Of a stretch of DNA of 64,000 nt, positions 49,173 to 64,000 are shown in pieces (the first letter of the stretch is position 1; every line of letters begins with the position of its first letter). The stretch lies in assembly GCA_025457915.1 (NCBI GenBank), contig JALOTL010000006.1, positions 124,001 through 188,000 of the forward strand, given 5' to 3'. Source of the stretch: Spirochaetota bacterium (GTDB lineage: Bacteria; Spirochaetota; UBA4802; UBA5550). Made by a program: the position numbers and the translations under genes. A model generated the notes under the pieces. It ran no database searches, was not told the origin of the DNA, and was given only the letters and a program-made list of their open reading frames with translations.

Positions 49173-50390
49173 ATGCATCAGTCAGAAAGCATTTTCAACA
49201 TCGAGGATAAATACAGCGCCCCGTTCCTGAAAAAAACAAAAATATCCATCGAAAGGGGTGACGGAGTTTTTGTTTACGATACCGATGGCAGGGAATATAT
49301 CGACTTTACCTCGGGCTGGGGCGTTGCCTGCCTTGGACATTCCCACCCCGTGATCATGAAAGCGCTCCAGGAGCAATCAGGTAAAATCATGCAAAACCCT
49401 AATTCAGGGGCCACCTATTCCCCCGCAAGGGCCGCTCTCCTGGAACTGCTGTCCGGCATTCTTCCGGGAGAACTCAGCAGGTTATTCTTTTGCAACAGCG
49501 GAGCGGAGGCCAATGACGCGGCCATAAAGCTCGCAAGAAAAGCCTCCGGGAAAAAAGGAATAATATCCATGAATATGAGTTTTCACGGCAGAACGATCAG
49601 CACCGCATCCGCAACCGGCCAACCGTTCCACAGGGACAAGTTCAATCCGCTCATGCCGTTTTATGCCTTTGTGCCGTACGGGGACATCGCGGCCGTCGAA
49701 AAGGCAATGGACGGGGATACCGCAGCCATAATTTTAGAGCCTGTCCAGGGCGAGGGCGGCGTAATCATTCCTCCCAATGGCTACCTTGAGGACCTCTCGG
49801 ATTTATGCGAGTCGAAGGAGATATTCCTCATACTCGACGAAATTCAGACGGGTTTTTTCAGGACCGGACCGGCCTTCTGTTCATCCCTGCTGGATCTAAA
49901 ACCGTCATTCATGACTATGGCCAAGGGCATAGCAGGCGGGTTTCCATTTGCTGCCATTGCAATGACAGATAAGGTCGCGTTAAAACTGTCCGCGGGAGAT
50001 CATGGAGGTACTTACTGTGGGAATCCCCTGGGCTGCGCCGTATCATACGCCGTTATCAAACATCTTATAGAGAACAGGATAGAAGACAATGTAAAAAAAA
50101 CTGGGGATTTCGCCCTTGAAATCATGCTGGACATGAAAAAAAAGCTGCCCGGGATAATTTCCGATGCCAGGGGAAAAGGCCTCCTGCTTGCTCTGGCTCT
50201 TGCGAACGGGGACCTCGCTGAAAAGGTGTTCGCATGCTGCCTTGAAAACGGCCTCATCGTCAACCTGTTAAAAGACAAGGGAATAATCAGGATATTCCCG
50301 CCTCTTAATATTTCGATGGATGAAATGGAAAATGGAATGAAAATTATGGCAGCGGCCGTGGAAACAGCGGCCTGCCGGAAAGAGGTTTAG
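49173..50390 (+). CDS. Class III PLP aminotransferase (acetylornithine aminotransferase-like)
   Basis: 405 residues. 'YIDFTSGWGVACLGHSHP', 'LFFCNSGAEANDAAIKLAR', 'AAIILEPVQGEGGVI', 'ILDEIQTGFFRTG' and 'TMAKGIAGGFPFAA' (Schiff-base Lys) are the fold's core motifs. Closest in pattern to ArgD/acetylornithine or succinyl-ornithine aminotransferases, but 4-aminobutyrate or related substrates are not excluded. No arginine-biosynthesis gene lies nearby. It follows the redox-protein gene by 15 bases. Confidence 0.9.
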   Translation: MHQSESIFNIEDKYSAPFLKKTKISIERGDGVFVYDTDGREYIDFTSGWGVACLGHSHPVIMKALQEQSGKIMQNPNSGATYSPARAALLELLSGILPGELSRLFFCNSGAEANDAAIKLARKASGKKGIISMNMSFHGRTISTASATGQPFHRDKFNPLMPFYAFVPYGDIAAVEKAMDGDTAAIILEPVQGEGGVIIPPNGYLEDLSDLCESKEIFLILDEIQTGFFRTGPAFCSSLLDLKPSFMTMAKGIAGGFPFAAIAMTDKVALKLSAGDHGGTYCGNPLGCAVSYAVIKHLIENRIEDNVKKTGDFALEIMLDMKKKLPGIISDARGKGLLLALALANGDLAEKVFACCLENGLIVNLLKDKGIIRIFPPLNISMDEMENGMKIMAAAVETAACRKEV

Positions 50391-50402
50391 ACCGGGACAG
50401 AT

Positions 50403-50810
50403 TTATTCAACGCCCTTCGCCATGAAAAAATCCCTGTATTTCATGTCCGTCCCCTTGATATGATTCATAAGCCAGTCCCTTAAAAAGCTCATCAGCTCCA
50501 GGGTGAACGCCTTCTTCCCGTTTTTATAAAGGGCGGTAAAATCATTTACCTTTTCAATGAAAACCGAGTGTTCGGAAATGTGGCTTTCATAGTCCGGATA
50601 GGAAAACTTCTCCATGAGATCGGCTTCCCTTTTAAAATGAAACCGCGTATAATCGACCAGTGCATCCAGGATTTCACTCATCTCCGACATGCCATGTCCG
50701 GATATCATGCCCATATGAAGCGTATTGATGTATTCGATAAGCTTCTTATGGTCGCTGTCGAACTGGCCGACTCCAACGCTGAAACCATCTGTCCATACGA
50801 TAAAAGACAT
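50403..50810 (-). CDS. Bacteriohemerythrin
   Basis: 135 residues, single-domain form. Diiron ligands are in place: 'FDSDHKKLIEYINTLH' (first His), 'HFKREADLMEKF' (HxxxE), 'YESHISEHSVFIEKV' (HxxxH) and 'WLMNHIKGTDMKYRDFF' (HxxxxD). It binds O2 reversibly and is common in anaerobes and microaerobes for oxygen storage or sensing. It is convergent with the aminotransferase gene, 12 bases apart. Confidence 0.95.
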   Translation of the reverse strand: MSFIVWTDGFSVGVGQFDSDHKKLIEYINTLHMGMISGHGMSEMSEILDALVDYTRFHFKREADLMEKFSYPDYESHISEHSVFIEKVNDFTALYKNGKKAFTLELMSFLRDWLMNHIKGTDMKYRDFFMAKGVE

Positions 50811-51199
50811 TTCATATGCTCCGGTTTATGAATATAGAATAATCTTCATCAAGCAAAATATTCCGCATCTGGATATGCAGTAATCGCCTGCAACCTGGAA
50901 ATAACGGGCCGCCGGCAATAAAGAGACGGCTCGATCCAGGAAATCACCTACAAGATAGTTGAATTTACAATATCATCAATACTTTTTTTCGCAATGCATT
51001 AAAAAATCAAAAATATTTATACTGTTATTCTTGCTTTTTCATATAATCGGTTGTATAAAAGCCCCGATATATTTTCTCATGCACTTCAATAATGCCGTAT
51101 TTTTACATGTTATCGACCTGGAAGATTCTAATTCCTGAAGATTGCAAATTCAAGGATGAGCAATTAATTATTATTGCAGGATCCGCTCCAATAATTTAT

Positions 51200-51271
51200 G
51201 GGCATCTCTATAAATTAGATTTTCCATGATAAAACCATTGTAAAAATCTAATTTATACATTAAAAATGCCC
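51200..51271. repeat. 72-base interrupted inverted repeat
   Basis: GGGCAT at 51200-51205 pairs with ATGCCC at 51266-51271, and ATAAATTAGATTTT at 51210-51223 pairs perfectly with AAAATCTAATTTAT at 51243-51256, with an asymmetric internal loop. The 20 paired positions are far more than chance gives locally. It could be a leader RNA or a small palindromic element. Confidence 0.75.
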
Positions 51272-51273
51272 AC

Positions 51274-51310
51274 AAGGGAACATCCTGTTTTGATTATTAT
51301 AGGTTCCCTT
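51274..51310. repeat. Second hairpin upstream of the NagX-like gene
   Basis: AAGGGAAC (51274-51281) and GTTCCCTT (51303-51310) are perfect complements with a 21-base loop. The 3' arm ends 11 bases before the ATG at 51322, so folding could hide or expose the start. Confidence 0.6.
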
Positions 51311-51321
51311 ATATTCCAAAG

Positions 51322-52422
51322 ATGAATATTTTACAAAATCGTGTTGCATCCATCGATATCTTCCGCGGCCTGACCATCGCAGGAATGATAATCGTAAACA
51401 ACCAGGGCGACTGGTCGCATGTCTATACTGTCCTAAGGCATGCATCATGGCACGGCCTGCTCGGTGCGGACGTCATTTTTCCGTTCTTTCTCTTCATCAT
51501 GGGTGTTTCAATATTTCATTCCCTATCAGGAAAAAAAGATCGCAGATCAACTATCGTCTGGAAAATAATTTTAAGAAGCGTTGTCCTGTTCCTTCTCGGC
51601 ATAATCCTCAACCTTTTCCCGGATTTCAATTTCGGAACCCTCAGGATCCCGGGAATTCTTCAACGGATATCGATCTGCTATCTTGCCGCCGGCTTGATCT
51701 TTCTTTTTTCAGGGATCAGGACGCAGGCCATAATCTGCGCGGCGCTGCTTCTCCTTTACTGGATCATACTGGCTCCGCCAGGCGCAGGTACGGACTCGCT
51801 TGACCAGAATGGAAACATATGCCAGTTAGCTGACAGGGCTCTCCTTGCGGGTCATGTCTATGCCAAATCAACCTCAACTGGACTCGACCCGGAAGGCATA
51901 CTCAGCACCATCCCATCCGTCTCATCAACGATGATCGGGGCGGTCTTCGCTGGATTTATGAAAAAAAAAGTTGATCCGGCCAGGCGCCTGGTATTCACGA
52001 GTTTAATTTCAGCATCTCTTATCATCCTCGGCCTGTGCCTGGGCCATTTCATGCCCATCAATAAAAATCTCTGGACCCCGACATATGCCCTGATTACCGG
52101 CGGAGCGGCATCGGCAGTACTTATCATCCTTCATGCCGCATGCGATCTGAAAGGCCATTCGTCATGGGGACTGCCGTTTACAATTCTCGGAATGAATTCC
52201 ATAACGGTTTTTTTCCTCTCCTCGCTTTCCGGGAAGGCCATGACAACATTCAGGTTTCCGTGTGGAGTTCATGCGAATCTGAAATCCTTCCTGACTGATG
52301 CTTTATCCGGATGCGTTCCAGATCCTTATTCGGCGTCCCTCCTTTATTCTGTGCTGTATCTTCTATTCTGGACCTGTGCCATGTATTGTTTATACAAAAG
52401 GAATATTTTTATCAAAATCTGA
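51322..52422 (+). CDS. NagX/HGSNAT-like membrane acyltransferase
   Basis: 366 residues, about ten helices. 'VASIDIFRGLTIAGMIIVNN' and 'HASWHGLLGADVIFPFFLFI' are the hallmarks of the DUF5009/heparan-alpha-glucosaminide N-acetyltransferase family, including the His near the predicted active site. 'LRIPGILQRISICYLAAGLI' and 'FTILGMNSITVFFLSSL' also match. It probably moves an acyl group across the inner membrane to a sugar or peptide in the periplasm. No ribosome site is obvious; two hairpins precede the start. Confidence 0.88.
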   Translation: MNILQNRVASIDIFRGLTIAGMIIVNNQGDWSHVYTVLRHASWHGLLGADVIFPFFLFIMGVSIFHSLSGKKDRRSTIVWKIILRSVVLFLLGIILNLFPDFNFGTLRIPGILQRISICYLAAGLIFLFSGIRTQAIICAALLLLYWIILAPPGAGTDSLDQNGNICQLADRALLAGHVYAKSTSTGLDPEGILSTIPSVSSTMIGAVFAGFMKKKVDPARRLVFTSLISASLIILGLCLGHFMPINKNLWTPTYALITGGAASAVLIILHAACDLKGHSSWGLPFTILGMNSITVFFLSSLSGKAMTTFRFPCGVHANLKSFLTDALSGCVPDPYSASLLYSVLYLLFWTCAMYCLYKRNIFIKI

Positions 52423-52469
52423 CGCATTATATCTTTGACAGTCCGGCCCTGATCAGTCATAATGCTGAT

Positions 52470-53015
52470 ATGGCGCGACATGTTAAAGACGACTTGAATG
52501 TGAAAAGCATCAGCTGGATCGATGAAGCGGAAATATACGCCCTCATCCCGGGTTATGAAAACAAAAAACCCGCCAGAAAAATCAAGTGCCTCAACAGGGC
52601 CAAAACGAACTGCTTCTTTTCACGCGGAATAAAAAAAGAACTTATAGATTTCATTTACAGGGGCGTGGTAAAACTCGGATTGAAGGACAGAAAGCTGATA
52701 TTCACCCGGGGGTCAGTCAAGGTAAGGGGAAGAGAGGTCAACCACGCCATAGGGCTGCTTGAACTGGACTGGGACGTCGGAACATCCGTCAAGATACCGC
52801 GGCTGCTCAACTATGAAAAAAAAATTAAACTCCTGATAAACGGTGAAACCCGCGGCCTCAGGCTGATGGAAATCATAGTCCTCAGCTGCCTGTTAAAGAT
52901 GGCGCTCCCAGGCAAAAACGGCGGCTGGTATACAGCCATGTCTGCTACAATCATCGCCCTGGGATGGGGGAGCCTTGACGGTGAACCGGCCGAGGTGTTG
53001 CAGCAGAAAGACTAA
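52470..53015 (+). CDS. Hypothetical basic protein
   Basis: 181 residues from ATG 52470; upstream in-frame codons overlap the acyltransferase gene and are not convincing. Unrecognised. Seen: a Lys/Arg-rich first half ('KKPARKIKCLNRAKTNCFFS'), a middle with strands ('GLLELDWDVGTSVKIPRLLN'), and a hydrophobic C-terminal helix pair ('LMEIIVLSCLLKMALPG', 'WYTAMSATIIALGWGSLDGE'). No nucleotide or DNA-binding motif is evident. It may be co-transcribed with the acyltransferase gene. Confidence 0.6.
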   Translation: MARHVKDDLNVKSISWIDEAEIYALIPGYENKKPARKIKCLNRAKTNCFFSRGIKKELIDFIYRGVVKLGLKDRKLIFTRGSVKVRGREVNHAIGLLELDWDVGTSVKIPRLLNYEKKIKLLINGETRGLRLMEIIVLSCLLKMALPGKNGGWYTAMSATIIALGWGSLDGEPAEVLQQKD

Positions 53016-53054
53016 AACCGTGCAAAAAAACCGAAGGATTTTACCGGGAAACGG

Positions 53055-53585
53055 TCAACAGGGATTCGATTCAGCAAGCTCACGGATCCTTTCCAGTATT
53101 ACTCCCGGCAGCGAATCCCTGTTATCCAGCGTTACTTCAATAACATCCATGTCTCTCCGTGCCTTGACTTCCCGGATGAAATCAGGTCCTCCGAGTGCGA
53201 TCGTACCGACTACTATGCATTCCGAATCGAGCGCTGACAAAGCCGCCTGCCGGAAATTTTCCGAAAAGCATTCCATCCTGCCGATCTCGTAGAGAATGAT
53301 CACGAACCCCTTGTCAGGCGATATGGACGACACGGCGATTGAGTCGATATTTTCCATGATGACCCCGTATCTTCGTATCCTGAATGCGGATTCAGCGTCC
53401 CTGCGGGCAAGGTATCCGGAACGGCCGTCAATGCTCCTCATGATGAACCCGGTCCTTCCCCCCTCGGCCCTCTCCTCCTCGGTATAGAATCCCTTGCATG
53501 GAACCGCAAGCCCGGCGATCACCTTTTTTATGACAGTTGTTTTTCCGGTTGAAGGGGCTCCCGTAATAAAAATGTTTTTATTCAT
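53055..53585 (-). CDS. THEP1-family nucleoside-triphosphatase
   Basis: 176 residues. The P-loop 'IFITGAPSTGKTTVIKKVI' opens the protein; 'CKGFYTEEERAEGGRTGFIM' and 'VIILYEIGRMECFSENF' (Walker B-like, with E-I-G-x-M-E) are typical of the NTPase_1/THEP1 family. These enzymes hydrolyse NTPs slowly; biological role is unclear, though RNA or DNA metabolism has been proposed. It ends 40 bases beyond the convergent hypothetical gene, with a DUF2905 gene upstream on its own strand. Confidence 0.92.
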   Translation of the reverse strand: MNKNIFITGAPSTGKTTVIKKVIAGLAVPCKGFYTEEERAEGGRTGFIMRSIDGRSGYLARRDAESAFRIRRYGVIMENIDSIAVSSISPDKGFVIILYEIGRMECFSENFRQAALSALDSECIVVGTIALGGPDFIREVKARRDMDVIEVTLDNRDSLPGVILERIRELAESNPC

Positions 53586-53597
53586 GAAGACTGCCGA

Positions 53598-53828
53598 TCA
53601 CCTGAAACGGTTAAAAAAATACAGGGCAAGGCTGAGGATAATGCTGATTATTATGCCTGTCGTCACGGGGAAATAGAAGCTGAATCGCTCCTTTTCAATT
53701 GATATATCGCCCGGAAGCCGGCCGAAATTTCTTAAAAAAGGAATCTCATCCCTGAAGTATATCGCAGCGCCGAGCGCAGCGATTAATAATCCGGCAATTA
53801 TTAGCGTTTTTCCCGGTGATGATTCCAT
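53598..53828 (-). CDS. DUF2905 small membrane protein
   Basis: 76 residues with two helices ('TLIIAGLLIAALGAAIYF' and 'VTTGIIISIILSLALYFF') joined by 'NFGRLPGDISIEKERFSFYF', the DUF2905 signature. Function unknown. It is widespread and often near ruvB or queA; here its neighbour 12 bases downstream is the THEP1 gene, and both are probably co-transcribed. Confidence 0.92.
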   Translation of the reverse strand: MESSPGKTLIIAGLLIAALGAAIYFRDEIPFLRNFGRLPGDISIEKERFSFYFPVTTGIIISIILSLALYFFNRFR

Positions 53829-53852
53829 TTCTGCCGTTCCGCTCCGGTCAGT

Positions 53853-54356
53853 CTATTTTACAGGAAAAAACGTGACGACTTCGGGTGTGCCGTCCTTCAC
53901 GACGATCCTAACTGACTTCAGGGTCTGTCTTCCGCCGCCCTTCCCGGCCCTGCCCCCCATGTAACCGATTATTTTACCGGTTTTATAAGTATAAGCGGTC
54001 CTTCCGCCCCTGGAACTGCCGTTAATCCCGCCGGATTTTATTTCAGACCAGGTCCTGTCCATAAGATCTATTATTTCAGGTTTGCCAATGCTGAACACGC
54101 CGTGTTTTTTTCGCTTTTCGATATTGACACTATGTCTCATTATATGCTCCAGCCTTGTGATCCCTTTGGGATCCCTCCCTTTTATAACAAGGCCGCCCCT
54201 TGTCTTCCATGAATCTCCGCCGGTTTTAATCAGGCGGCCGCTCTTTTCAAGGGATGCAATCTCATCCCCGCTTATAAAAACCTGTCCGGTGAATCCTGCG
54301 GCTGCTGAAAAAAACAGCATCGTTATTGAAATCAAAGTCAATATTACATTTTTCAT
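53853..54356 (-). CDS. Secreted EndoU/BECR-like putative RNase
   Basis: 167 residues from ATG 54356 (GGAG six bases upstream) with a signal peptide ('VILTLISITMLFFSAAAG'). The mature part reads 'TRLEHIMRHSVNIEKRKKHG' and 'VFSIGKPEIIDLMDRTW', and ends 'VRIVVKDGTPEVVTFFPVK'. Two His, a W in the central helix and a C-terminal strand ending in T-x-F-P resemble bacterial EndoU-like (BECR fold) nucleases, whose last motif is T-A-Y-P. The match is by pattern only. No toxin-delivery module or obvious immunity gene adjoins it. Confidence 0.55.
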   Translation of the reverse strand: MKNVILTLISITMLFFSAAAGFTGQVFISGDEIASLEKSGRLIKTGGDSWKTRGGLVIKGRDPKGITRLEHIMRHSVNIEKRKKHGVFSIGKPEIIDLMDRTWSEIKSGGINGSSRGGRTAYTYKTGKIIGYMGGRAGKGGGRQTLKSVRIVVKDGTPEVVTFFPVK

Positions 54357-54433
54357 ATTCAGCTCCGTCAATCGTTGATGAAAATAAGAATATTATATAA
54401 TAAGCGCAACAAGCTTTCCGTTCAATCGATTTT

Positions 54434-55891
54434 TCAGACGCCTGAATCACTGGTCCCGGAAATTTTTTTCCAGATAAAGTAAACAGGAACTCCGGTAATA
54501 ACGATCAAAAGGCCGGGCCAGGTGTATTTCGGCTTGAAAATCAGCAGATTGACCGATATGAAAAGAGCAGCGATTATGTAAACCGCGGGCAGAACCGGAT
54601 ATCCGAACGCCCTGTAGGGTCTTTCCGCATTCGGCTTTTTTTTCCTGAGGATGAATATGCCGGCTACCGTAAGCATGTAAAAAATCAGCACTGAAAAAAT
54701 CACGTAGTCAAGCAGATCTCCGTAAGTGCCGGTAAGGCAGAGGATGCCGGACCATGCGGCCTGAATAAAAAGGGCGAACCCCGGAACGTTTTTACTGTTA
54801 AGATTCCCGGCCTTTTCAAAAAAATAACCGTCCCGCGCCATGGCGTAGTATACCCTCGCGCCGGAAATTATGAGCCCGTTGTTGCATCCGAAGGTGGAGA
54901 CCATAATTACAGCTGCCATGAAAAAAGATCCGGCGTTCCCAACCGCATGGGAAACTGCCGCGACAGCAACCCTGTCGTCCGCGGCGAACTGGATCCCCCT
55001 GCCGAATGCATCCGGCGCATCCGGTGATCCGGCCACGGGAAGCATGACGATATATGCAAAATTCACGGCTATATAAATAAGGGACACGAGACCGGTGCCC
55101 ACTGCCAGGCTCAAGGGGATATTCCTCTGCGGATTAACCACCTCGCCCGCTGTAAATGTAATGTTGTTCCACGCGTCGCTTGAAAAAAGGGAGCCCACCA
55201 TTGAAACGCAGATCGCCGCAAAAACAGACAGCCCGGCAAGCCATGCGGTATCTGAGGTAAAGAAGCCTGATGATACCGAAGGCGGCCTTTCCCAGAATCC
55301 CGATAGATTTGATTCTACAGCCGAAGGGTTCCATCCAAGGACGAATCCCACGGCAATCAGGATAACCAGGGCCGCGACTTTTATAATAGTAAATCCGTCC
55401 TGAAAAAGTTTGCCCGCATGTATGCCTTTTGAATTTATATAGGTCAGCAGTATTATGGTAAATATGGCTGTCAGATGCGAGCCCTTAAGGCCGAAGCCTG
55501 AAAAAACGGCGATGACATTTTTTTCTCCGAGGGCCGGCAGGAAAACCGAGGCGAATTTGGCGAACGCCACCGCCACAGCGGATATGGTACCGGTCTGGAT
55601 CACGAAAAAAAGCGTCCATCCGTACAGGAAACCGACCAGCGGGTTATAGGCCTCCCTGAGGTATATATACTGCCCGCCGGCTCCGGGCATCATTGCCGCC
55701 AGTTCCCCGTAGCTGAGGGCCCCTATGCAGGTTACAGCACCGGTGATCATCCAGACCAGCATCAGGTATCCGGCCGAGCCCATGTTCCTTGCGATGTCGG
55801 CGCTGACAATGAAAATGCCGGAACCGATCATGGACCCGACAATGAGCATGGTTGAATCAAGAAAACCGAGTTCCCTTTTAAATTCCTTCAT
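54434..55891 (-). CDS. Amino acid permease (APC superfamily, LAT-like)
   Basis: 485 residues from ATG 55891; the longer frame from 55951 is untypical. Twelve helices. 'LDSTMLIVGSMIGSGIFIVS' is the G-S-G-I-F substrate-binding bend in helix 1, and 'MMPGAGGQYIYLREAYNPLV' and 'FGCNNGLIISGARVYYAMAR' are typical of the LAT/YkbA branch that exchanges neutral amino acids. It reads away from the MORN gene. Substrate is not known. Confidence 0.92.
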   Translation of the reverse strand: MKEFKRELGFLDSTMLIVGSMIGSGIFIVSADIARNMGSAGYLMLVWMITGAVTCIGALSYGELAAMMPGAGGQYIYLREAYNPLVGFLYGWTLFFVIQTGTISAVAVAFAKFASVFLPALGEKNVIAVFSGFGLKGSHLTAIFTIILLTYINSKGIHAGKLFQDGFTIIKVAALVILIAVGFVLGWNPSAVESNLSGFWERPPSVSSGFFTSDTAWLAGLSVFAAICVSMVGSLFSSDAWNNITFTAGEVVNPQRNIPLSLAVGTGLVSLIYIAVNFAYIVMLPVAGSPDAPDAFGRGIQFAADDRVAVAAVSHAVGNAGSFFMAAVIMVSTFGCNNGLIISGARVYYAMARDGYFFEKAGNLNSKNVPGFALFIQAAWSGILCLTGTYGDLLDYVIFSVLIFYMLTVAGIFILRKKKPNAERPYRAFGYPVLPAVYIIAALFISVNLLIFKPKYTWPGLLIVITGVPVYFIWKKISGTSDSGV

Positions 55892-56129
55892 ATTGATATC
55901 CAAAATATAAATCGCCTGTCTATAGTGGTCACAGTGCGTCAACTTAATCAATTATTTTTAATACTGCATCAATACATATGATAGTGTTGAAAATAATGTC
56001 AAAAAACCTCTTTTCATAAGACGTTGTAATCAAAACCATGAGATGGCACCTGATTATTAATTTTTTTATAAATTTATCGAATAAATCTATAAAAAAGCTA
56101 CTTGATCCGAGTTTCCAAATATTGGACAA

Positions 56130-56157
56130 TTGACAGGAAAATATGCTCCATTATTAC
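56130..56157 (+). promoter_or_regulatory. Sigma-70-like promoter of the MORN gene
   Basis: TTGACA at 56130-56135 and TATTAC at 56152-56157 are separated by 16 bases. The start codon is about 100 bases downstream, leaving a leader that includes the tandem repeat at 56190-56235. Confidence 0.45.
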
Positions 56158-56189
56158 GAATAGCATTTGGCAAGCCACACGAAAAAAAT

Positions 56190-56235
56190 GGATTGAAAAA
56201 AATAACATCCGGATTGAAAAAATAACATCTGGATT
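56190..56235 (+). repeat. Imperfect 20/21-base tandem repeat in the MORN gene leader
   Basis: GGATTGAAAAAAATAACATCC (56190-56210, 21 bases) is followed by a 20-base copy (56211-56230) with one A fewer and one change, and by GGATT of a third start. It lies in the leader, 25 bases before the ATG. Confidence 0.8.
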
Positions 56236-56259
56236 ATTATAAAAAAATGAGAGGTATTT

Positions 56260-57180
56260 ATGAAAAAGATTCCTGCTTTAACGATTCTTTTGTCATTGAT
56301 TTTTGTTCAAAATGCATACTCTCAACAGTGCCTCAAGGGTGACTGCAAAAACGGCGTCGGGACCATGACATGGACTTCCGGCGACAAATATGAAGGACAG
56401 TTTAAAAACGGAAACATGGAAGGCAAGGGAGTTATGACCTATAAAAGCGGTATAATTTATAAAGGTCTGTGGCTGAAAGGCAACATGAAGGGTAACGGCA
56501 CGATGACCTGGCCAAACGGAGACAGGTACGAAGGAACTTTTCTTAATAATAAAATGAGCACTTACGGCACTATGACATACGCCAACGGCACAAAGTATAC
56601 CGGAATGTGGACCAACGGCTTGATTGATAAAATGGGCACCATGACATGGAAAAACGGAGACAAGTACGAAGGGATTTTCAAGAACGGTAAGCGCGATGGA
56701 AAAGGCACCATGACATGGAAGTCCGGCGATAAATACAACGGCCAGTGGAAAAATGATCAGATGGACGGCGAAGGCACGATGACATATGCCGGCAAAAAAG
56801 CCGTCAAGGGGAAATGGAAAAACGGAAAACTCATTGAGGAGGCCAAATCTGCGTCCGATGTTCCGGAACCAAATGGTTCATACGGATTGTTTTGCCTACT
56901 GAATCCCGGTGACTCCAGATATGCCGAAAACCCAAGATGGATTTTCGACTTTGCAACCGGCGGCAAAGGCACGTACAAAAATTTTGGCGGAGAAACCCAG
57001 CTCACAGGAAAAATATCCTGGAAGCTTGATGGAAAAGTACTTACCCTAACACTTATAGGAATGGAAGGCGGCCCGCAGAAATATACATATGACGCCAGCA
57101 AAAAGTGGTTTGCCGAAAATCCAAGGCCTTACGGTCCATCCAACAAGGTCATGACAGTCTGCATAATCAAGAAAAGATAG
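56260..57180 (+). CDS. Secreted MORN-repeat protein with C-terminal beta domain
   Basis: 306 residues. Signal peptide ('IPALTILLSLIFVQNAYSQ') then 'CLKGDCKNGVGTMTW'. About eight MORN repeats fill residues 25-195 in the form GxGTMTWxxGDKYEGxFKNG. Residues about 205-306 are a separate beta-rich module ('NPRWIFDFATGGKGTYKNFG', 'GKISWKLDGKVLTLTLIGME') that I do not recognise; it could be lipocalin-like. MORN repeats bind lipids or proteins. A smaller paralogue with the same Cys-pair cap is at 46099-46356. A perfect hairpin follows the stop. Confidence 0.9.
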   Translation: MKKIPALTILLSLIFVQNAYSQQCLKGDCKNGVGTMTWTSGDKYEGQFKNGNMEGKGVMTYKSGIIYKGLWLKGNMKGNGTMTWPNGDRYEGTFLNNKMSTYGTMTYANGTKYTGMWTNGLIDKMGTMTWKNGDKYEGIFKNGKRDGKGTMTWKSGDKYNGQWKNDQMDGEGTMTYAGKKAVKGKWKNGKLIEEAKSASDVPEPNGSYGLFCLLNPGDSRYAENPRWIFDFATGGKGTYKNFGGETQLTGKISWKLDGKVLTLTLIGMEGGPQKYTYDASKKWFAENPRPYGPSNKVMTVCIIKKR

Positions 57181-57200
57181 ACTAAATTAACGCAAGGCAT

Positions 57201-57226
57201 ACGGACGGGATAAACTTCCCGTCCGT
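57201..57226 (+). terminator. Perfect 10-bp hairpin between MORN and membrane-protein genes
   Basis: ACGGACGGGA and TCCCGTCCGT pair perfectly around TAAACT. No T-run follows, so it may only partly terminate, protect the MORN transcript's 3' end, or act on the leader of the next gene, whose ATG is 15 bases on. Confidence 0.55.
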
Positions 57227-57240
57227 AACAAATAAATTTA

Positions 57241-58320
57241 ATGAACTACAAAATCATCTCCCCGGAAAGCGAAGGCGTCATCCTGAAAAAAACCGCTTTT
57301 TCATCGATATTTTTCTGGCTGATCCTGTCGATAGGCCTGTTTTCTTTGCTCCCTTCCCTGCCTGTATTGTTTTCGGAAAATCCCGGCGCAGGCTTCGGCT
57401 TTCTCGGGTTCGGACTGGTCTTCATATCCGGGTCCCTCATCCTTAAAGGTGCGTCCCGGTTATTTCCAGAAAAAATCACTTTCGACAATAATTCAAACCG
57501 CATGATACTGTCAGGGAAAAAGAAAAGCGCTTATATCGGTTACGGCGATATCGAGGGCTTCCGTCTTTACCGCTTCCCGAGGGGCGGTTCCTTTATATAC
57601 CTGAAAAAAAAAGACGGGGCACCGTTCGATCTCATCCGGTGCGGGACCGGCGGAACAAAAAAACCCGATGAGACCATCAGGCTGCTGGAAAGTAAAACAA
57701 CCTTCGATTCCGGTAAAGCGCGTCCTGAATGCGCCATGCCCGAATGGGCGTCGATGGCAGACAATGCAGGGAGGACCGTTTTCAGCTGGAACGAGAGGAT
57801 TTCCATCATCCAGTTCATTTCGATATTCTTCATGTTCGCGGGTTTCGGATTATCCATTTACGGCCTGTCGGACAACCAGTTCATCAAATACGCCGTATCC
57901 GCCGCTTTCACCGTAGTCGGCTGTCTGTACGTACTTTATCACCTTGCTGAAAAAACCATTTTCCGCCTTAATGTCCTGGTGGTCGGTGTAAAAGATGTGC
58001 AGTACGGTTCGGCCCGCAATCTCGATTCATTTAACAAATACGGAATGAGAATAAAAAAGACCATTAATATATATGAAATCAAAACGACTTGGTACTCCAT
58101 GGACCAGGTCGCGGGTAATTTCCCGAATATACTGATAATGGATGATAAGGCAATTCATCTGCTGGATGACATAAGAACCAGGAATTATTCCGTACAGGAT
58201 ATAAAAAAAATGCTTAAAGAGTATTACGGCCTGTTTAAAATTCCGGTGGCGAACCGTGACTTGACAGACCTTGTCAATCTTGAACAGGCAATTCACGCGG
58301 CAATTGAAGAAAAAAGATGA
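57241..58320 (+). CDS. Membrane protein of unknown function
   Basis: 359 residues. Four likely helices: 20-40 ('SSIFFWLILSIGLFSLLPSL'), 50-67 ('GFGFLGFGLVFISGSLILK'), about 190-208 ('IIQFISIFFMFAGFGLSIYG') and 218-235. The soluble parts have PH-like strands ('NRMILSGKKKSAYIGYGDIE', 'GFRLYRFPRGGSFIYLKKKD'). No catalytic motif is seen and I do not recognise the family. The ATG lies 15 bases after the hairpin at 57201-57226, with no strong ribosome site. Confidence 0.7.
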   Translation: MNYKIISPESEGVILKKTAFSSIFFWLILSIGLFSLLPSLPVLFSENPGAGFGFLGFGLVFISGSLILKGASRLFPEKITFDNNSNRMILSGKKKSAYIGYGDIEGFRLYRFPRGGSFIYLKKKDGAPFDLIRCGTGGTKKPDETIRLLESKTTFDSGKARPECAMPEWASMADNAGRTVFSWNERISIIQFISIFFMFAGFGLSIYGLSDNQFIKYAVSAAFTVVGCLYVLYHLAEKTIFRLNVLVVGVKDVQYGSARNLDSFNKYGMRIKKTINIYEIKTTWYSMDQVAGNFPNILIMDDKAIHLLDDIRTRNYSVQDIKKMLKEYYGLFKIPVANRDLTDLVNLEQAIHAAIEEKR

Positions 58321-58350
58321 ACCTGACCCTGAATCAAAGCATTAGAAATT

Positions 58351-59310
58351 TCATGAGCCGAAGCTGAATGTATATATGGCCGAAACGGTAAGCCCGTAAA
58401 AGTGGTCGAACCTCCCGCCGATCTTCTCGTATGACTGGTCATTTACTTTCTGATAATACCTGAGAAGCTGGTACCTGAAACCCGAGGCAATAGTTACGCC
58501 GATGTCGGAAAAACTATAAGCAAGCCCGGTCGAAAAAGTACCGCCGCATGTTAAATATTTACCATGAATAACTTTGAAAAAATCAAGTGCAACTATCGGG
58601 GTTTTGTTTTCCATAAATGCGACCTCCCATGAATGAGGGAATCTATCCCTGCCCCACATTATAATGCCTGATACCGACAACTGAAGATATAATGATTCCC
58701 ACAGGTTAATATTGAATGATACCCCGAGACCCGGACCTGAGTTTTTATTCAATTTCTTTCTTTTGTCGACGGCAAATTTAGCCTTGCCGGGATCACCGGA
58801 AAGCCAGGTATGTTCCGTTTCTTTATAGGAATATCCCTGGTATTTGAATCCCCCGAAAATTGCAAAAAAACTTGTTATCTGAATTCCAAGTGAAGTATCC
58901 AGGTCCCATTTGGTTATTTCTCGTTTAAAAGTCCTGGGCATTATATATAATTCCAAATTTGGTAAATAAACAAACTTCCTCATAAAACCTTCAGACTTCA
59001 TGAATGTTTTACCATACATGAAGACCGCGGAGAGTTTTATCTTATCGAAGAATTTAAACCCCAGGGCGGGGCCGAACAGGGACATGTCATGCTTCGGCTT
59101 GAACTCTTTAATTATAAAATCATCAAATCGGATATTGCCGTTGTTGGTATTATAAGTTATCCGCCTGGTATACCCGTCTTTCCACGCGGGATCCCAGTGA
59201 TTGTACCAGTAATTGCCGCCTATCGAAACGTCCAGTACGGATGTTTGTGCGGGGCTTTTCAACCCGGCAACCATGCAGATCAAAAAAACAACAAGAATCA
59301 CTCTTTGCAT
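58351..59310 (-). CDS. Probable outer-membrane beta-barrel protein
   Basis: 319 residues with a signal peptide ('MQRVILVVFLICMVAGLKS' then 'PAQ'). The mature protein has alternating amphipathic strands rich in aromatic residues ('GGNYWYNHWDPAWKDGY', 'FFAIFGGFKYQGYSYKETEH', 'LYLQLSVSGIIMWGRDRF') and ends '...LTVSAIYTFSFGS' with Phe near the terminus. This is the composition of a small outer-membrane barrel. Family unknown. It lies 95 bases downstream of the sterol-reductase-like gene on the same strand. Confidence 0.7.
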   Translation of the reverse strand: MQRVILVVFLICMVAGLKSPAQTSVLDVSIGGNYWYNHWDPAWKDGYTRRITYNTNNGNIRFDDFIIKEFKPKHDMSLFGPALGFKFFDKIKLSAVFMYGKTFMKSEGFMRKFVYLPNLELYIMPRTFKREITKWDLDTSLGIQITSFFAIFGGFKYQGYSYKETEHTWLSGDPGKAKFAVDKRKKLNKNSGPGLGVSFNINLWESLYLQLSVSGIIMWGRDRFPHSWEVAFMENKTPIVALDFFKVIHGKYLTCGGTFSTGLAYSFSDIGVTIASGFRYQLLRYYQKVNDQSYEKIGGRFDHFYGLTVSAIYTFSFGS

Positions 59311-59405
59311 GGGGCCTCCTTTTTTTAATTACTGTTAAAGAGCCGGCCTTAAACTTTTCTTTATTAAAACATTGAATAGTCATTTTTCAAACACTTTTTA
59401 ACTTT

Positions 59406-60728
59406 TTACCATATTTTCGGTATGATTTTATACGGCACCAGCTTGCGGTATTCGTCCCAGTAAGCGCCGTATTTAACAGCGCACCTGCGGTCGTCCCTGA
59501 TTGATCTGTGCGTGAGCAATATTGTCAGAAAGGTAACATAGAAATACGGCATGAAGTTCAAAAAAAGCGCTGGAACGCTCCAGAAAAATGCAGCGAGTAT
59601 CTCGGGTATGTAATGGAAATGACGTGACAATCCCCACCAGCCTGAAGCGAGAAGAAGACTTTGCTTTTCCTCGCCGCTCTCGGTCTTATATAAAGCCTTT
59701 ATTAAAACAGGCTTCTTCCCCCATACAGTGCAATTACCGCCCGTCGCCCTCACCTTCTGCCTCTGCCTGTCGGCGAGGTAATTTACCGCGATGCTTGCCG
59801 CGCCGAGAATAAAAATAACGGACGCGAGCGGAAGGCCCAGCCTGTTTGGATGGTCGACCAGGTACAGGGTATGGGAGGTGTAGACCGAAGGAACCCATAC
59901 GAGACAGCCCCAGCAGATATAGAAGCCGGCCCTGTCATGCATGATGTCCATGGAGCTCATGTATCCCGGCTCCCATATGAAAAACTTCGTAACGTAGATG
60001 ATCTGCAGAGCCACAGCGACGATCATTGAATCCGAGATGCCGTACAGCTCGTTCTGCTTGGCCGCGAATGAAATGATCAGCAGGGGCCAGCCCATCAGCC
60101 CGAAGCGGCAGTTCGTGAACATCTTGACGTCCCAGCCGAATATTCCCGGGTAAAGCTCCGTGCCCCAGTAATAGTCGAAAATGAAATTCCCGGAAAGTCC
60201 ACTGTCCGTGGATGACGGGGCATACCTTCCCTTCAGGTAAAGCACAAGGCAGAATGCCAGGCTTGCGAAGTTCAGCGCGCCGAGCAATTCGTCGAAGCGG
60301 TCATAAATGATTGTCGCAGGAAACAGTTTCAAAACGAATGACGCTGTAACAAAGACCAGGATAGTCACTAAATAAGCCGGCACGCCGTTGGCCCTGTATT
60401 CCGGAACGTTTCCCATGGGAGTGACCGGCCCCCTGAAAGGTCTACCGGGAAGGAACCTCATGAGCAGAAGCTCCAGGATCACGAACACCGCTATCATGGC
60501 CCATGCCCTGGCCGTGCCGAAAAAAACCGGGAGCCACACCGAAGCAAGGATTTTGAAAAGCCCGTCATTCAGTATTTCACTTCCAAGAAGAAAAAACGAC
60601 CCGTGCAGATTCACGTTCGTGTGCCATATAAGCATTACTGAAGGAGGGCATGTTATCAATAAAATCAGCGCGAGGGTCCTGCGCCAGGCGGCATCGAATT
60701 TTCGGTTAACAACATTTCCGGTTTCCAA
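59406..60728 (-). CDS. 7-dehydrocholesterol reductase homologue (ERG4/ERG24 sterol reductase family)
   Basis: 440 residues, about nine helices. Along the whole C-terminal half it follows animal DHCR7: 'SGNFIFDYYWGTELYPGIFG', 'LLIISFAAKQNELYGISDSM', 'QIIYVTKFFIWEPGY', 'MDIMHDRAGFYICWGCLVWV', 'LLLASGWWGLSRHFHYIPEI', 'LPYFYVTFLTILLTHRSIRD'-type ending and 'CAVKYGAYWDEYRKLVPYKI'. This family reduces the C7-C8 double bond (delta7) or C14-C15 of sterols with NADPH in a membrane. Bacterial members are few (known examples are from intracellular bacteria such as Coxiella). No squalene or sterol-synthesis gene is in the window, so substrate may be acquired. Confidence 0.9.
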   Translation of the reverse strand: METGNVVNRKFDAAWRRTLALILLITCPPSVMLIWHTNVNLHGSFFLLGSEILNDGLFKILASVWLPVFFGTARAWAMIAVFVILELLLMRFLPGRPFRGPVTPMGNVPEYRANGVPAYLVTILVFVTASFVLKLFPATIIYDRFDELLGALNFASLAFCLVLYLKGRYAPSSTDSGLSGNFIFDYYWGTELYPGIFGWDVKMFTNCRFGLMGWPLLIISFAAKQNELYGISDSMIVAVALQIIYVTKFFIWEPGYMSSMDIMHDRAGFYICWGCLVWVPSVYTSHTLYLVDHPNRLGLPLASVIFILGAASIAVNYLADRQRQKVRATGGNCTVWGKKPVLIKALYKTESGEEKQSLLLASGWWGLSRHFHYIPEILAAFFWSVPALFLNFMPYFYVTFLTILLTHRSIRDDRRCAVKYGAYWDEYRKLVPYKIIPKIW

Positions 60729-60872
60729 GAAGTCTCCTTGTACAATAATATTTAGTCAGTGTTTAAATTCCCGGTCGGGTCATTTATTGAATATGGCCGG
60801 AGAATGATCATCCGGCTGGGGGATTTTCAGGGTACGGAAATACGCGATCATGGCATTTAATAAAACAGCGTG

Positions 60873-61253
60873 TTATTCGGGATTTCCAAGAAGCTTTTCA
60901 ATAGCTCCGAATATCTCCTCGTCCACTGGAGGTTTTGAAATTATCGTATAATTTCTAATCGATCTCATCAGCGAAGCATCGATAAGATGGCTGTCCCCGG
61001 TCAGAAAAACTACCGGTATCATTCTTTTCATCTGAATCTTTTCTGCCGCGTAAAGACCGTCATCTTTGCCATCAAGAATCACATCCGTCAATATCAGGTC
61101 CGGATTCAGCGTGGAGGCCTTTTCTATGGCATCTGCTGCGGTGGACGCCACGGAAACCACTTCGTAGCCGCGCCTGTTCAATCTCATGGTCATATCATAG
61201 GCGATTATGGCCTCGTCCTCGACGATTAATATTTTCTTCGTCCCCATCCTCAC
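60873..61253 (-). CDS. Single-domain response regulator
   Basis: 126 residues. 'KILIVEDEAIIAYDMTMRLN' has the acidic pair, 'PDLILTDVILDGKDDGLYAA' the phospho-acceptor Asp, 'VVFLTGDSH' the Thr and 'YTIISKPPVDEEIFG' the Lys. No output domain is present. The start is GTG 61253, overlapping the stop of the histidine-kinase remnant (GTGA), or ATG 61247. The usual CheY-like/HWE-kinase-linked receivers look like this; its kinase partner appears lost. Confidence 0.9.
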   Translation of the reverse strand: MRMGTKKILIVEDEAIIAYDMTMRLNRRGYEVVSVASTAADAIEKASTLNPDLILTDVILDGKDDGLYAAEKIQMKRMIPVVFLTGDSHLIDASLMRSIRNYTIISKPPVDEEIFGAIEKLLGNPE

Positions 61254-61357
61254 GCCGGAAACCTGATTTTAAAAACGGTTCCCGATCCCCTGTCCATGCT
61301 CAAGGTCTCGTTAATCTGATCGGGCTGGATCCCGACCTGCTTCAGATATATAACAAA
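61250..61357 (-). pseudogene. Histidine-kinase C-terminal remnant
   Basis: The minus-strand frame ending at TGA 61250-61252 reads about 35 residues and finishes 'NETLSMDRGSGTVFKIRFPA'. That is the usual tail of a histidine-kinase ATPase domain (...GTxFxIxFP). An in-frame TGA at 61358-61360 closes it upstream, and no kinase is found further on. It overlaps the response-regulator start, so it is probably the end of a deleted kinase gene. Confidence 0.6.
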
Positions 61358-61377
61358 TCAAAAAAAGCATGAACCCT

Positions 61378-61914
61378 TCATGGCTTCCATTTCTGCGGTA
61401 CCCTTTGCAGCTTTTCCGTATCGTAGCCAATTCCCTTGAGATAAGCGGTTATTCCATTCATCTCGGCTTCCGGAAGCGATGGTTTTCTCGCCATGATCCA
61501 TACATAATCGAGCTTGCTCCTGCCTATGACTGTTATCGAATAATCATCCTTGAGGTATATTATCAGGTATTCTGATTTGATCGGCCATATGAACTGCATG
61601 TCCCAGACGGAGTTGCTTTCCTTATCGCGTACGAATCCCAGCGGGTGGTATATTTTTTCCGGGCCGTCGAAAGAGCCCTTCCTGAAAGTGAATGTCGTGG
61701 CAATCGTTCCGTCATCGTTAAGCCTGTATGACTCCACGGCATTGTACGCTTCCTTTTCAAGAAAGGTGGGTATGTTGGCGATAACATACCAGTCTCCCAT
61801 GAAACGCTTGAGGTCAACTTTCTGCACGGTCTCCAGTGTTGGCATTGTAGTACACTCTGTTATTAATAGAAATGAAGCAATTACTGCGGTCTGGATTATT
61901 TTTTTTAATTTCAT
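61378..61914 (-). CDS. Bacterial lipocalin (Blc-like) lipoprotein
   Basis: 178 residues from ATG 61914; the longer frame from 61995 includes a non-signal stretch. The lipobox is 'SFLLITECTTM'. The lipocalin core follows: 'VDLKRFMGDWYVIANIPTFL' (G-x-W motif), 'NDDGTIATTFTFRKGSFDGP', 'WPIKSEYLIIYLKDDYSITV' (K-x-x-Y-x-I-x-Y-L) and 'LDYVWIMARKPSLP' (the [LV]W-x-x-x-R motif). It is expected in the outer membrane, binding lipids or fatty acids. A DHCR7-like gene lies about 650 bases downstream on the same strand. Confidence 0.94.
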   Translation of the reverse strand: MKLKKIIQTAVIASFLLITECTTMPTLETVQKVDLKRFMGDWYVIANIPTFLEKEAYNAVESYRLNDDGTIATTFTFRKGSFDGPEKIYHPLGFVRDKESNSVWDMQFIWPIKSEYLIIYLKDDYSITVIGRSKLDYVWIMARKPSLPEAEMNGITAYLKGIGYDTEKLQRVPQKWKP

Positions 61915-62152
61915 ATCTCTTATACTTGATCCCATAAAACTTAATATTCCTGGTTTTTGAATCATATGATAAAATAATCCATATTTCAGGAACATTCCAT
62001 TTAAATTACAAAATTTTTTAATCGCTTGTTTTTTTTTACATTAATCCCAAAAACTTGTTATATTACAATATCTGTTATCATTAACTTATAATGATAAATA
62101 AAAGTAATTAAATATATAAAATATTAATATGTGAGGAAGGTTTTTATACTAT

Positions 62153-62869
62153 ATGAAAACTACCCATGTCATAATCCTATCCGCTGTATTTTTGGCGATA
62201 TCGATAACGGTTAATTCCGAAGAAGCCTTCACGGGAAACATATATCTCGCAGGAAGCAACAGGACGGTATTATTGTTCCAGCAGAAAAACAGCGCGTTAA
62301 AAAAAGACGGGAAATCAATCCTGAGGCATATATATACTGATACAAACGGGAGGACGGCTGTAATCGAGGACGTGATTTTTGAAAAAGGTTCATTTATCGA
62401 ATACCATGTCGAGTTCGCTGATACGGAATGCGGTTGCAAATTGGAAAGGAACGGAAACAAATTGAAATTCGGATTCACAAGGGGAGACACTTCCAAATCC
62501 GGGGAGGATGATTATTATCAAAACCTCGTCATGGGGCCCACCCTGAGGAGCTTCATCAAAGCCAACTGGAATCCCATGGAATCAGGGGAGACGGTATATT
62601 TTTACCTTCCGGCCATGACACTGATGAGGGTAGCAAGATTCAGAATGTTCAGGCACGATGATTCACCATATAACAGGCCTGGCGTGATCGTCTTTAAAAT
62701 GGACCTGTCGAACTTTTTCCTGCGCCCATTCGTAGATCCCGTAGACCTTGTTTATGACGTTAAAACAAAAAGGCTGACGGAGATACACGGTAAAAGTCTT
62801 TTACGAAGAAAGGTAAACGGCAAAATGGAAAACCCGGTAGTGGACATATATTACACTTATAAAACGTAA
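62153..62869 (+). CDS. Secreted hypothetical protein (LolA-like outer-membrane sorting family possible)
   Basis: 238 residues with a signal peptide ('VIILSAVFLAISITVNSEE'). The middle contains 'FIEYHVEFADTECGCKLER' with two near-adjacent Cys, and the C-terminal half 'VIVFKMDLSNFFLRPFVDPV' and 'YDVKTKRLTEIHGKSLLRR', the DxxTxxLxxI pattern of beta-sandwich lipoprotein-sorting-like folds. That resemblance is weak. It precedes a membrane-protein gene by 25 bases and is probably co-transcribed with it. Confidence 0.65.
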   Translation: MKTTHVIILSAVFLAISITVNSEEAFTGNIYLAGSNRTVLLFQQKNSALKKDGKSILRHIYTDTNGRTAVIEDVIFEKGSFIEYHVEFADTECGCKLERNGNKLKFGFTRGDTSKSGEDDYYQNLVMGPTLRSFIKANWNPMESGETVYFYLPAMTLMRVARFRMFRHDDSPYNRPGVIVFKMDLSNFFLRPFVDPVDLVYDVKTKRLTEIHGKSLLRRKVNGKMENPVVDIYYTYKT

Positions 62870-62894
62870 AACATAACAGATGCGGAGAAGAATG

Positions 62895-63440
62895 ATGTTA
62901 AATGCAAAAAAACTGACTCTAATAATAATAAACATAACCGGAGGGGCGGCCGTGCTGGGCAGCTATGCACATGGGATCCTGGCCCATCCAGAAACAGCGG
63001 GGCTCCTGTGGGGTAATGTTCCGACGGAGATCATTCCGTTATACACAGCATCAATGTTTTCGGCTGCAGCGGGTTACCTTGCCTTTACCTTTTTCATTCT
63101 GTTCAGGCTGGATCCAGGGACCGTGAAAATTGCGGGGCGTTTCAATTATAAAATATTTTATGCAATTTATGCCGCGATTCTCGCGCCTTCAGCATTATGG
63201 ATGCCTCTGACCTTTTATATGCTGGCGAATCCATCTCCCTGCATCTGGACGGCAATCAGGACAGTGCTGGCAATCGTCGGCATTTCGTCTGTCGGAATGC
63301 TTGCAGCGCTTGCTCTCATCCGCCCCGTAAATAAAGGGCCGGCCTACATTCTGGCCTTAATCGGAGCCGCCGCTTTTATCATCCAGACGGGGATACTTGA
63401 CGCAATTGTCTGGACCGCTTATTTCCCGGCAGGATATTAA
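62895..63440 (+). CDS. Five-helix membrane protein of unknown function
   Basis: 181 residues from ATG 62895 (GGAG seven bases upstream); ATG 62892 is an equal alternative. Helices are at about 8-28, 48-68, 85-106, 118-140 and 148-170. No conserved motif is recognised ('YAHGILAHPETAGLLWGNVP' in a loop). It probably forms a small operon with the secreted protein before it. Confidence 0.6.
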   Translation: MLNAKKLTLIIINITGGAAVLGSYAHGILAHPETAGLLWGNVPTEIIPLYTASMFSAAAGYLAFTFFILFRLDPGTVKIAGRFNYKIFYAIYAAILAPSALWMPLTFYMLANPSPCIWTAIRTVLAIVGISSVGMLAALALIRPVNKGPAYILALIGAAAFIIQTGILDAIVWTAYFPAGY

Positions 63441-63472
63441 GCCAGAAGATAATCGCATGAATGCAGGCAGCT

Positions 63473-64000
63473 TTACTTGAACACGGGCATGCCGGGTGTG
63501 ATTTTCCCCTGGAAAGCCGCCCCCGCGCCCGAAAGCACGCACTTGGCGATCGTCTGCATGGGAAATTTCACTTCAAGTACCGCTTTTTTCCCGTCGATAA
63601 TTATGAAAATTTTGTCCCCCATCATCATGGTCTCAGCAGCCCTTCCGGATGACACGATTATCTCCGATCCTTTAACTTCGCGTACCCTGCCTGCCAGCTG
63701 TCCGGCAAGGTCTATCCTTGACGCTTCAGTCGCCCTGTCTTTACGCAGCCCAAACAGCTGTGCGAGAAGATTTTTGTTCCTGAAGCTCCTGTCGAACTTG
63801 TTGACCGGAACAGACTCGTTCTCAAGGTTCCAGTAAAACGAATCGAACATGTCCTCCGTCCCGTCGTATTCGCCTGACGATGAAACGGCGAACCATTTGT
63901 CCCTCCCGCACAGCATGATGCTTCCAAGGTGCTTCCCCGTCCTGAATTCATAAAACGCCACAAGGCGGCCGTTGTGTTTCACCAGAATATCGTTCGCTGA
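63473..64000 (-). CDS. C-terminal part of a WD40/beta-propeller-type protein (5' end outside window)
   Basis: The frame is open to the right edge, so the N-terminus is missing. The visible 175 residues include 'WFAVSSSGEYDGTEDMFDSF' and 'NKFDRSFRNKNLLAQLFG'. That G-x-Y/YDG pattern followed by a Phe/Arg/Leu stretch is common after WD40 repeats or in caspase-like proteins. The tail has beta strands ('SEIIVSSGRAAETMMMGDKI'). It cannot be identified without the missing part. Confidence 0.55.
   Translation of the reverse strand, partial: SANDILVKHNGRLVAFYEFRTGKHLGSIMLCGRDKWFAVSSSGEYDGTEDMFDSFYWNLENESVPVNKFDRSFRNKNLLAQLFGLRKDRATEASRIDLAGQLAGRVREVKGSEIIVSSGRAAETMMMGDKIFIIIDGKKAVLEVKFPMQTIAKCVLSGAGAAFQGKITPGMPVFK

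Follow-up and report, generated by a model that had tools for sequence, protein, structure and literature searches.

A predicted delta-7-type sterol reductase gene in a Spirochaetota genome, with candidate companion genes for late sterol steps

The window, i.e., the whole stretch of 64,000 nucleotides that was analysed, lies on a Spirochaetota contig of 271,916 bases and carries a single intact open frame with a TTG start and a product of 440 aa (Table 1). A sterol reductase homologue with the C-terminal motifs of this enzyme group had been claimed at exactly these bounds by an earlier, sequence-only reading, and both points are borne out. The window protein matches the Pfam family ERG4_ERG24 (PF01222) with an E-value of 4.1e-75 (253.6 bits, cut-off 27), residues 61-440 aligning to positions 53-432 of the 432-position profile and reaching its end, and the C-terminal motifs are present; no NCBIfam model was matched. 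In a search of solved structures, only delta-14 sterol reductases matched, namely 4quv (MaSR1 of Methylomicrobium alcaliphilum; 2.6e-64, 221 bits) and 9l5r (2e-43). An AlphaFold2 model built from 47 sequences has a mean pLDDT of 90.6 and fits onto 4quv_A over 392 residues (Z 45.0, rmsd 2.1, 36% identity; Foldseek 1.4e-23), the structural runner-up reaching Z 12.0. The window gene is a member of the ERG4/ERG24 family with the MaSR1 fold. Its codon use correlates at 0.83 with that of 28 window genes, the leave-one-out range of those genes being 0.58-0.93.

Table 1. Location of the window gene and of the candidate companion genes; plain coordinates refer to the window, those with an L prefix to other loci.
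Feature	Location	Strand	Basis
Predicted delta-7 (DHCR7/DWF5-type) sterol reductase gene, 440 aa	59406..60728	-	Pfam, 4quv match, model, residues, trees
AAGGAG, ribosome-binding-like, 5 bases 5' of the TTG start	60734..60739	-	direct sequence reading
ERG2_Sigma1R (ERG2/sigma-1-receptor-family) gene	L138:10188-10958, contig C24	-	Pfam 1.8e-58, 197.8 bits, cut-off 21
EXPERA/EBP-family genes beside a C14-like gene	L005:3031-3603; L004:843-1448	+; -	profile match, family mates G011/G012
Short-chain dehydrogenase and EXPERA genes	L158:4296-5666, contig C48	+	18 bases apart, same strand

Active-site residues were mapped from MaSR1 onto the window protein through the 4quv sequence alignment. In MaSR1, Y241 and D363 are given as predicted catalytic residues in the available text of PMC12489058, and N359 and R395 as residues of the NADPH pocket in that of PMC4951196. 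The corresponding positions of the window protein are Y245, E376, H372 and R408, respectively, and K319 of MaSR1 corresponds to R323. Across 48 delta-7-type rows, Y245, R323, R327 and R408 are invariant (48/48), and H372 and E376 are found in 47 and 46 rows; in the C14-like rows, R323, H372 and E376 are replaced by K, N and D, respectively. MaSR1 thus displays the C14 signature K319, N359 and D363, whereas the window protein has R, H and E in its place. Since these departures are shared by 46-48 of the 48 delta-7-type rows, they represent a signature of the delta-7 branch and not decay, and the catalytic residues, whose loss had been named in advance as evidence against a sterol reductase, are kept in the alignment. 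The loop preceding the LLxSGWWG motif is longer in the window protein, and the three C14-like rows show an eight-column gap there.

Sequence comparison assigns the window protein to the delta-7 (DHCR7/DWF5) branch, outside the C14 branch. It shares 51-65% identity with 46 delta-7-type rows (alignment A4) and 30-32% with the three C14-like proteins of its phylum; a separate comparison gives 33% for P0002, a second family member of its own genome. A phylogeny, which the sequence-only reading had proposed as a check, likewise places the protein with the delta-7-type rows and away from the C14 branch. In the first tree (82 rows, 79 delta-7-type and three C14-like of the phylum), the two sets are separated with support of 100/100, the window protein is sister to eight Bacteroidota sequences (99/89), and the bacterial group stands apart from an approximate plant DWF5 fragment (95/84). 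A second tree of 63 rows, from which this fragment and the long branches were removed, repeats the delta-7/C14 split and the Bacteroidota sister position, the latter with 99/91. The nearest relatives in both trees are Bacteroidota and Myxococcota sequences; rooting is by the C14-like rows only, and the deeper forks are less certain. By these alignments and trees, the window protein is closest to delta-7 reductases of the plant/protist type (DWF5), bacterial ones included, which refines the likeness to animal DHCR7 put forward by the sequence-only reading; this class reading depends on rows among which there is no experimentally characterised full-length delta-7 sequence. The plant DWF5 sequence itself is 60% identical to the window protein and has the same motifs, the reference being a rough one, a single C-terminal fragment of 259 aa.

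To collect relatives, a genome collection was scanned with the window protein and the approximate DWF5 fragment, which yielded 154 candidate stretches and from these 84 bacterial relatives, of which 80 were kept. The kept loci belong to Pseudomonadota (48, including 35 from Legionellaceae and one from Coxiellaceae), Chlamydiota (13), Bacteroidota (8), Myxococcota (5) and Verrucomicrobiota (2), with four unassigned; because both query peptides favour the delta-7 branch, the list is no census of bacterial sterol reductases. The earlier statement that such enzymes are known mainly from intracellular lineages holds in part: 49 of the 80 loci are from Legionellaceae, Coxiellaceae or Chlamydiota, but eight are from Bacteroidota and five from Myxococcota. 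Three scans of viral contigs, considered as a possible origin, returned no delta-7 relative and a single 28% match (L038).

Delta-7 reductases were reported in Legionella drancourtii, Protochlamydia amoebophila and Coxiella burnetii and, according to the accessible text of that report, were then unknown in other prokaryotes (PMC2667531). These enzymes, CBU1158 in the case of C. burnetii, belong to the same ERG4/ERG24 branch as the window protein, and the Legionella and Chlamydiota homologues collected here are mostly 55-63% identical to it. The L. drancourtii primer published in the same text, as read here, encodes D-R-A-G-F-Y, a motif of the window protein. Gene transfer among amoeba-resisting bacteria has been reviewed (PMC3423634, available in part), and further bacterial sterol reductases appear in the accessible portions of PMC13277303 and PMC12004948. 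Whereas the three reported hosts are amoeba-resisting or intracellular, the present host is a spirochaete whose sequence groups with Bacteroidota. No report of a spirochaete sterol reductase was found in a literature search that covers few subscription journals. The window gene carries the known bacterial delta-7 branch into a new phylum; what is new here is the Spirochaetota host together with the accompanying gene set, the latter being the less expected part.

The host assembly comprises 3.66 Mb in 50 contigs and is 96.38% complete and 1.57% contaminated. The flagellar sheath protein FlaA (PF04620), to our knowledge confined to spirochaetes, was detected in 59 of 60 phylum genomes, including the host genome, and in none of 14 controls. 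A search of 392 phylum genomes found no delta-7-type match in any other genome of the phylum. The other full-length PF01222 matches were the C14-like proteins of three genomes, i.e., the host (G000) and its family mates G011 and G012, together with a protein of 368 aa from G350 that is divergent. This last protein, of another subtype, is encoded next to a short-chain dehydrogenase gene (L009:593-2571, + strand), and second copies of 360-380 aa similar to it occur in several genomes with a delta-7 relative.

The sequence-only reading had also suggested a search for further sterol genes, and this returned a C14-reductase-like gene, an ERG2-type isomerase gene and an EXPERA gene, all outside the window. 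The C14-like protein is P0002 on contig C24 (428 bits), which matches 4quv with 438.5 bits (E 2.6e-130), compared with 221 bits for the window protein; it carries the C14 signature K, N and D, is closer to MaSR1 than the window protein is and has clear homologues in family mates. The ERG2_Sigma1R gene adjoins it on the same strand across a 127-base gap. The ERG2-type protein matches the sigma-1 receptor (8w4b) at 1.4e-35 and in this alignment keeps an aspartate (in EVYDFLL) and a glutamate (in WMLEYARG) at both ligand-site acidic positions, which we take to be D126 and E172 of the receptor. Fungal ERG2 is a C8 sterol isomerase, and animal EBP carries out the same isomerisation with an unrelated protein. 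The ERG2 family was detected in three of the 392 phylum genomes and in none of the 14 controls. The gene that follows the C14-like gene on the same strand in G011 and G012 is instead an EXPERA gene (E 3.7e-17 and 3.5e-15). The host genome also has an EXPERA gene, located on contig C48, where it follows a short-chain dehydrogenase gene at a distance of 18 bases; EXPERA genes occur in eight of the 392 genomes, and the family also includes non-isomerase members. The delta-7, C14/ERG2 and EXPERA loci lie on three contigs and share no operon. That two unrelated isomerase-type families take each other's place next to the C14 reductase is the best indication that a sterol nucleus is what these genes act on.

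Other genes near the C14 locus were considered as sterol importers and set aside: a sodium/bile-acid-symporter-family gene is fitted nearly as well by a pantothenate-transporter model, and nothing ties a FadL-like gene to sterols. A tocopherol-cyclase-like protein (1.4e-23; L138:11590-12579, + strand) is encoded next to the FadL-like outer-membrane protein gene near the C14/ERG2 pair.

Genes for sterol synthesis from scratch were sought by profile searches in these draft genomes. Squalene epoxidase was found in none of six genomes, the host included, and P450 in none of 20 family genomes, again including the host; FA_hydroxylase, the family of the sterol C4 and C5 oxidases, was not detected in the host and is present in seven of the 20. 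No squalene-cyclase-family match of cyclase length was found in the host. A 373-aa host protein scores 31.7 bits as a whole against the squalene-cyclase domain, above the cut-off of 26.1; its domain match (25.5 bits) covers residues 105-196 only, and it was judged not to be a cyclase and set aside. Full-length matches to the squalene-hopene-cyclase family, of 188.5 and 185.5 bits, are present in the family mates G012 and G007, respectively. Oxygen is not needed by the gene families detected but is needed by the undetected ones, the cyclase excepted. As the host genome is 96.4% complete, the missing genes are no proof of absence. Among 29 genomes that bear a relative from the 80 loci, taken irrespective of completeness, 18 have no squalene-cyclase-family match, nine have matches of at least 182 bits (potential hopene or sterol cyclases) and two have weaker ones. 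The delta-7 reductase is thus often an orphan among these 29 relative-bearing genomes.

Considering these data, we regard it as probable that the window gene encodes a predicted delta-7 reductase, acquired horizontally, that remodels imported sterols as the last step of an oxygen-independent module. Its product would be a functional, NADPH-dependent, multi-helix membrane enzyme of the plant/protist (DWF5) type, and the gene would have been gained by horizontal transfer within a pool of genes of this kind among bacteria. The fold and residues suggest that NADPH is bound from the cytosol, that the sterol enters via the membrane and that the C7 double bond is reduced. The host would build no sterols and take them up from eukaryotes; given that no from-scratch sterol genes were found, the spirochaete probably remodels sterols of other organisms, presumably to the benefit of the cell. 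This agrees with the earlier suggestion that host or environmental sterols are used, which fits the failure to detect epoxidase, P450, FA_hydroxylase or a full-length cyclase. The likely order of steps is C14 reduction (ERG24-like), C8-to-C7 isomerisation (ERG2-like and/or EXPERA) and C7 reduction (window gene), the C14/ERG2 pair converting delta-8,14 sterols to delta-7 sterols. The substrate of the window enzyme would be delta-5,7 (or delta-7) sterols, e.g., ergosterol-like ones. Because the host has no detected C5-desaturase-family gene, the module alone would yield no delta-5,7 substrate. The enzyme would then either act on delta-7 sterols or depend on a delta-5,7 sterol from outside; the latter, e.g., imported ergosterol, is most likely.

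Three other explanations were weighed against this remodelling of imported sterols. The delta-7 likeness could reflect ancestry only, with a non-sterol lipid such as another polyprenoid or a quinone-like ring as the substrate. The tocopherol-cyclase-like and FadL-like genes near the C14/ERG2 pair make other lipids possible, but the delta-7 residue signature is kept, two more sterol-nucleus families stand side by side in the genome and a second isomerase-type family occupies the same place in relatives, so we consider this explanation unlikely. Synthesis of sterols by the spirochaete itself appears still less probable. It would require the cyclase and the oxygen-dependent enzymes to lie in the missing part of an assembly that is 96.4% complete in 50 contigs, or to be replaced by unrecognised proteins, and the full-length cyclase-family matches of G012 and G007 indicate that triterpenoid synthesis exists in the family; however, epoxidase, a cyclase-length protein, P450 and FA_hydroxylase are jointly not found in the host, and P450 is found in none of the 20 family genomes.

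The explanation to which we give the least credence is misbinning of the window contig, the gene then coming from another bacterium, e.g., of the Bacteroidota or Myxococcota. Such an origin would match the nearest relatives and the restriction of the delta-7 type to this one genome among the 392 of the phylum. It is difficult to reconcile with the length of the contig (271,916 bases), contamination of 1.57%, a codon use that matches that of the neighbouring genes and the position of the C14/ERG2 pair on another contig, where the C14 gene has clear family-mate homologues.

The orphan sterol enzymes of bacteria have been linked to host cholesterol and to an intracellular lifestyle within amoebae. 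In C. burnetii, CBU1158 (delta-7) and CBU1206/Stmp1 (delta-24) are described as orphan enzymes, CBU1206 being active in yeast, and the organism is said, in the part of the source available, to be without the rest of the pathway (PMC8787468). The spirochaete likewise has two predicted sterol reductases; in contrast to the C. burnetii pair, the partner is of the C14 and not the delta-24 type and has an adjoining ERG2-type isomerase gene. If the proposed remodelling is true, three or four late-step genes without a full-length cyclase would make the modification of borrowed sterols a wider bacterial habit, and the spirochaete offers a compact, testable gene set that bears on the movement of sterol genes between bacteria and eukaryotes. 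A more tentative idea, possible though short of being our expectation, is that some spirochaetes run an oxygen-independent pathway on imported sterols, in which two unrelated isomerase families have been swapped at one locus and the oxygen-needing steps dropped.

Within the window, the proposed link of the reductase with a nearby lipocalin and outer-membrane barrel found no support, as neither recurs in any of the 80 related loci. When 11 other window genes were searched against these loci, the lipocalin, a response regulator and the barrel, tried as partners, gave no matches; the only gene with matches was an amino-acid permease, which found distant ones (20-33% identity) at two loci. The identity of the barrel is an inference of the sequence-only reading, as the protein has no Pfam match. 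No RNA element reached the gathering score in positions 50000-64000, promoter and terminator scans gave no excess over shuffles, and no tRNA was found in the window. Among ten neighbours of delta-7 reductases at five loci of other bacteria, no sterol pathway family was detected; a sugar-epimerase-type protein of L085 gave a weak secondary 3Beta_HSD match only. A secreted-looking protein with five MORN repeats is encoded at 56260-57180 (+) of the window. In the Bacteroidota loci L085, L092 and L061, a gene of 294-295 aa followed by one of 333-338 aa recurs downstream of the delta-7 reductase; in L085, where their families were tested, these are of the RmlD/epimerase and the endonuclease/phosphatase type, respectively.
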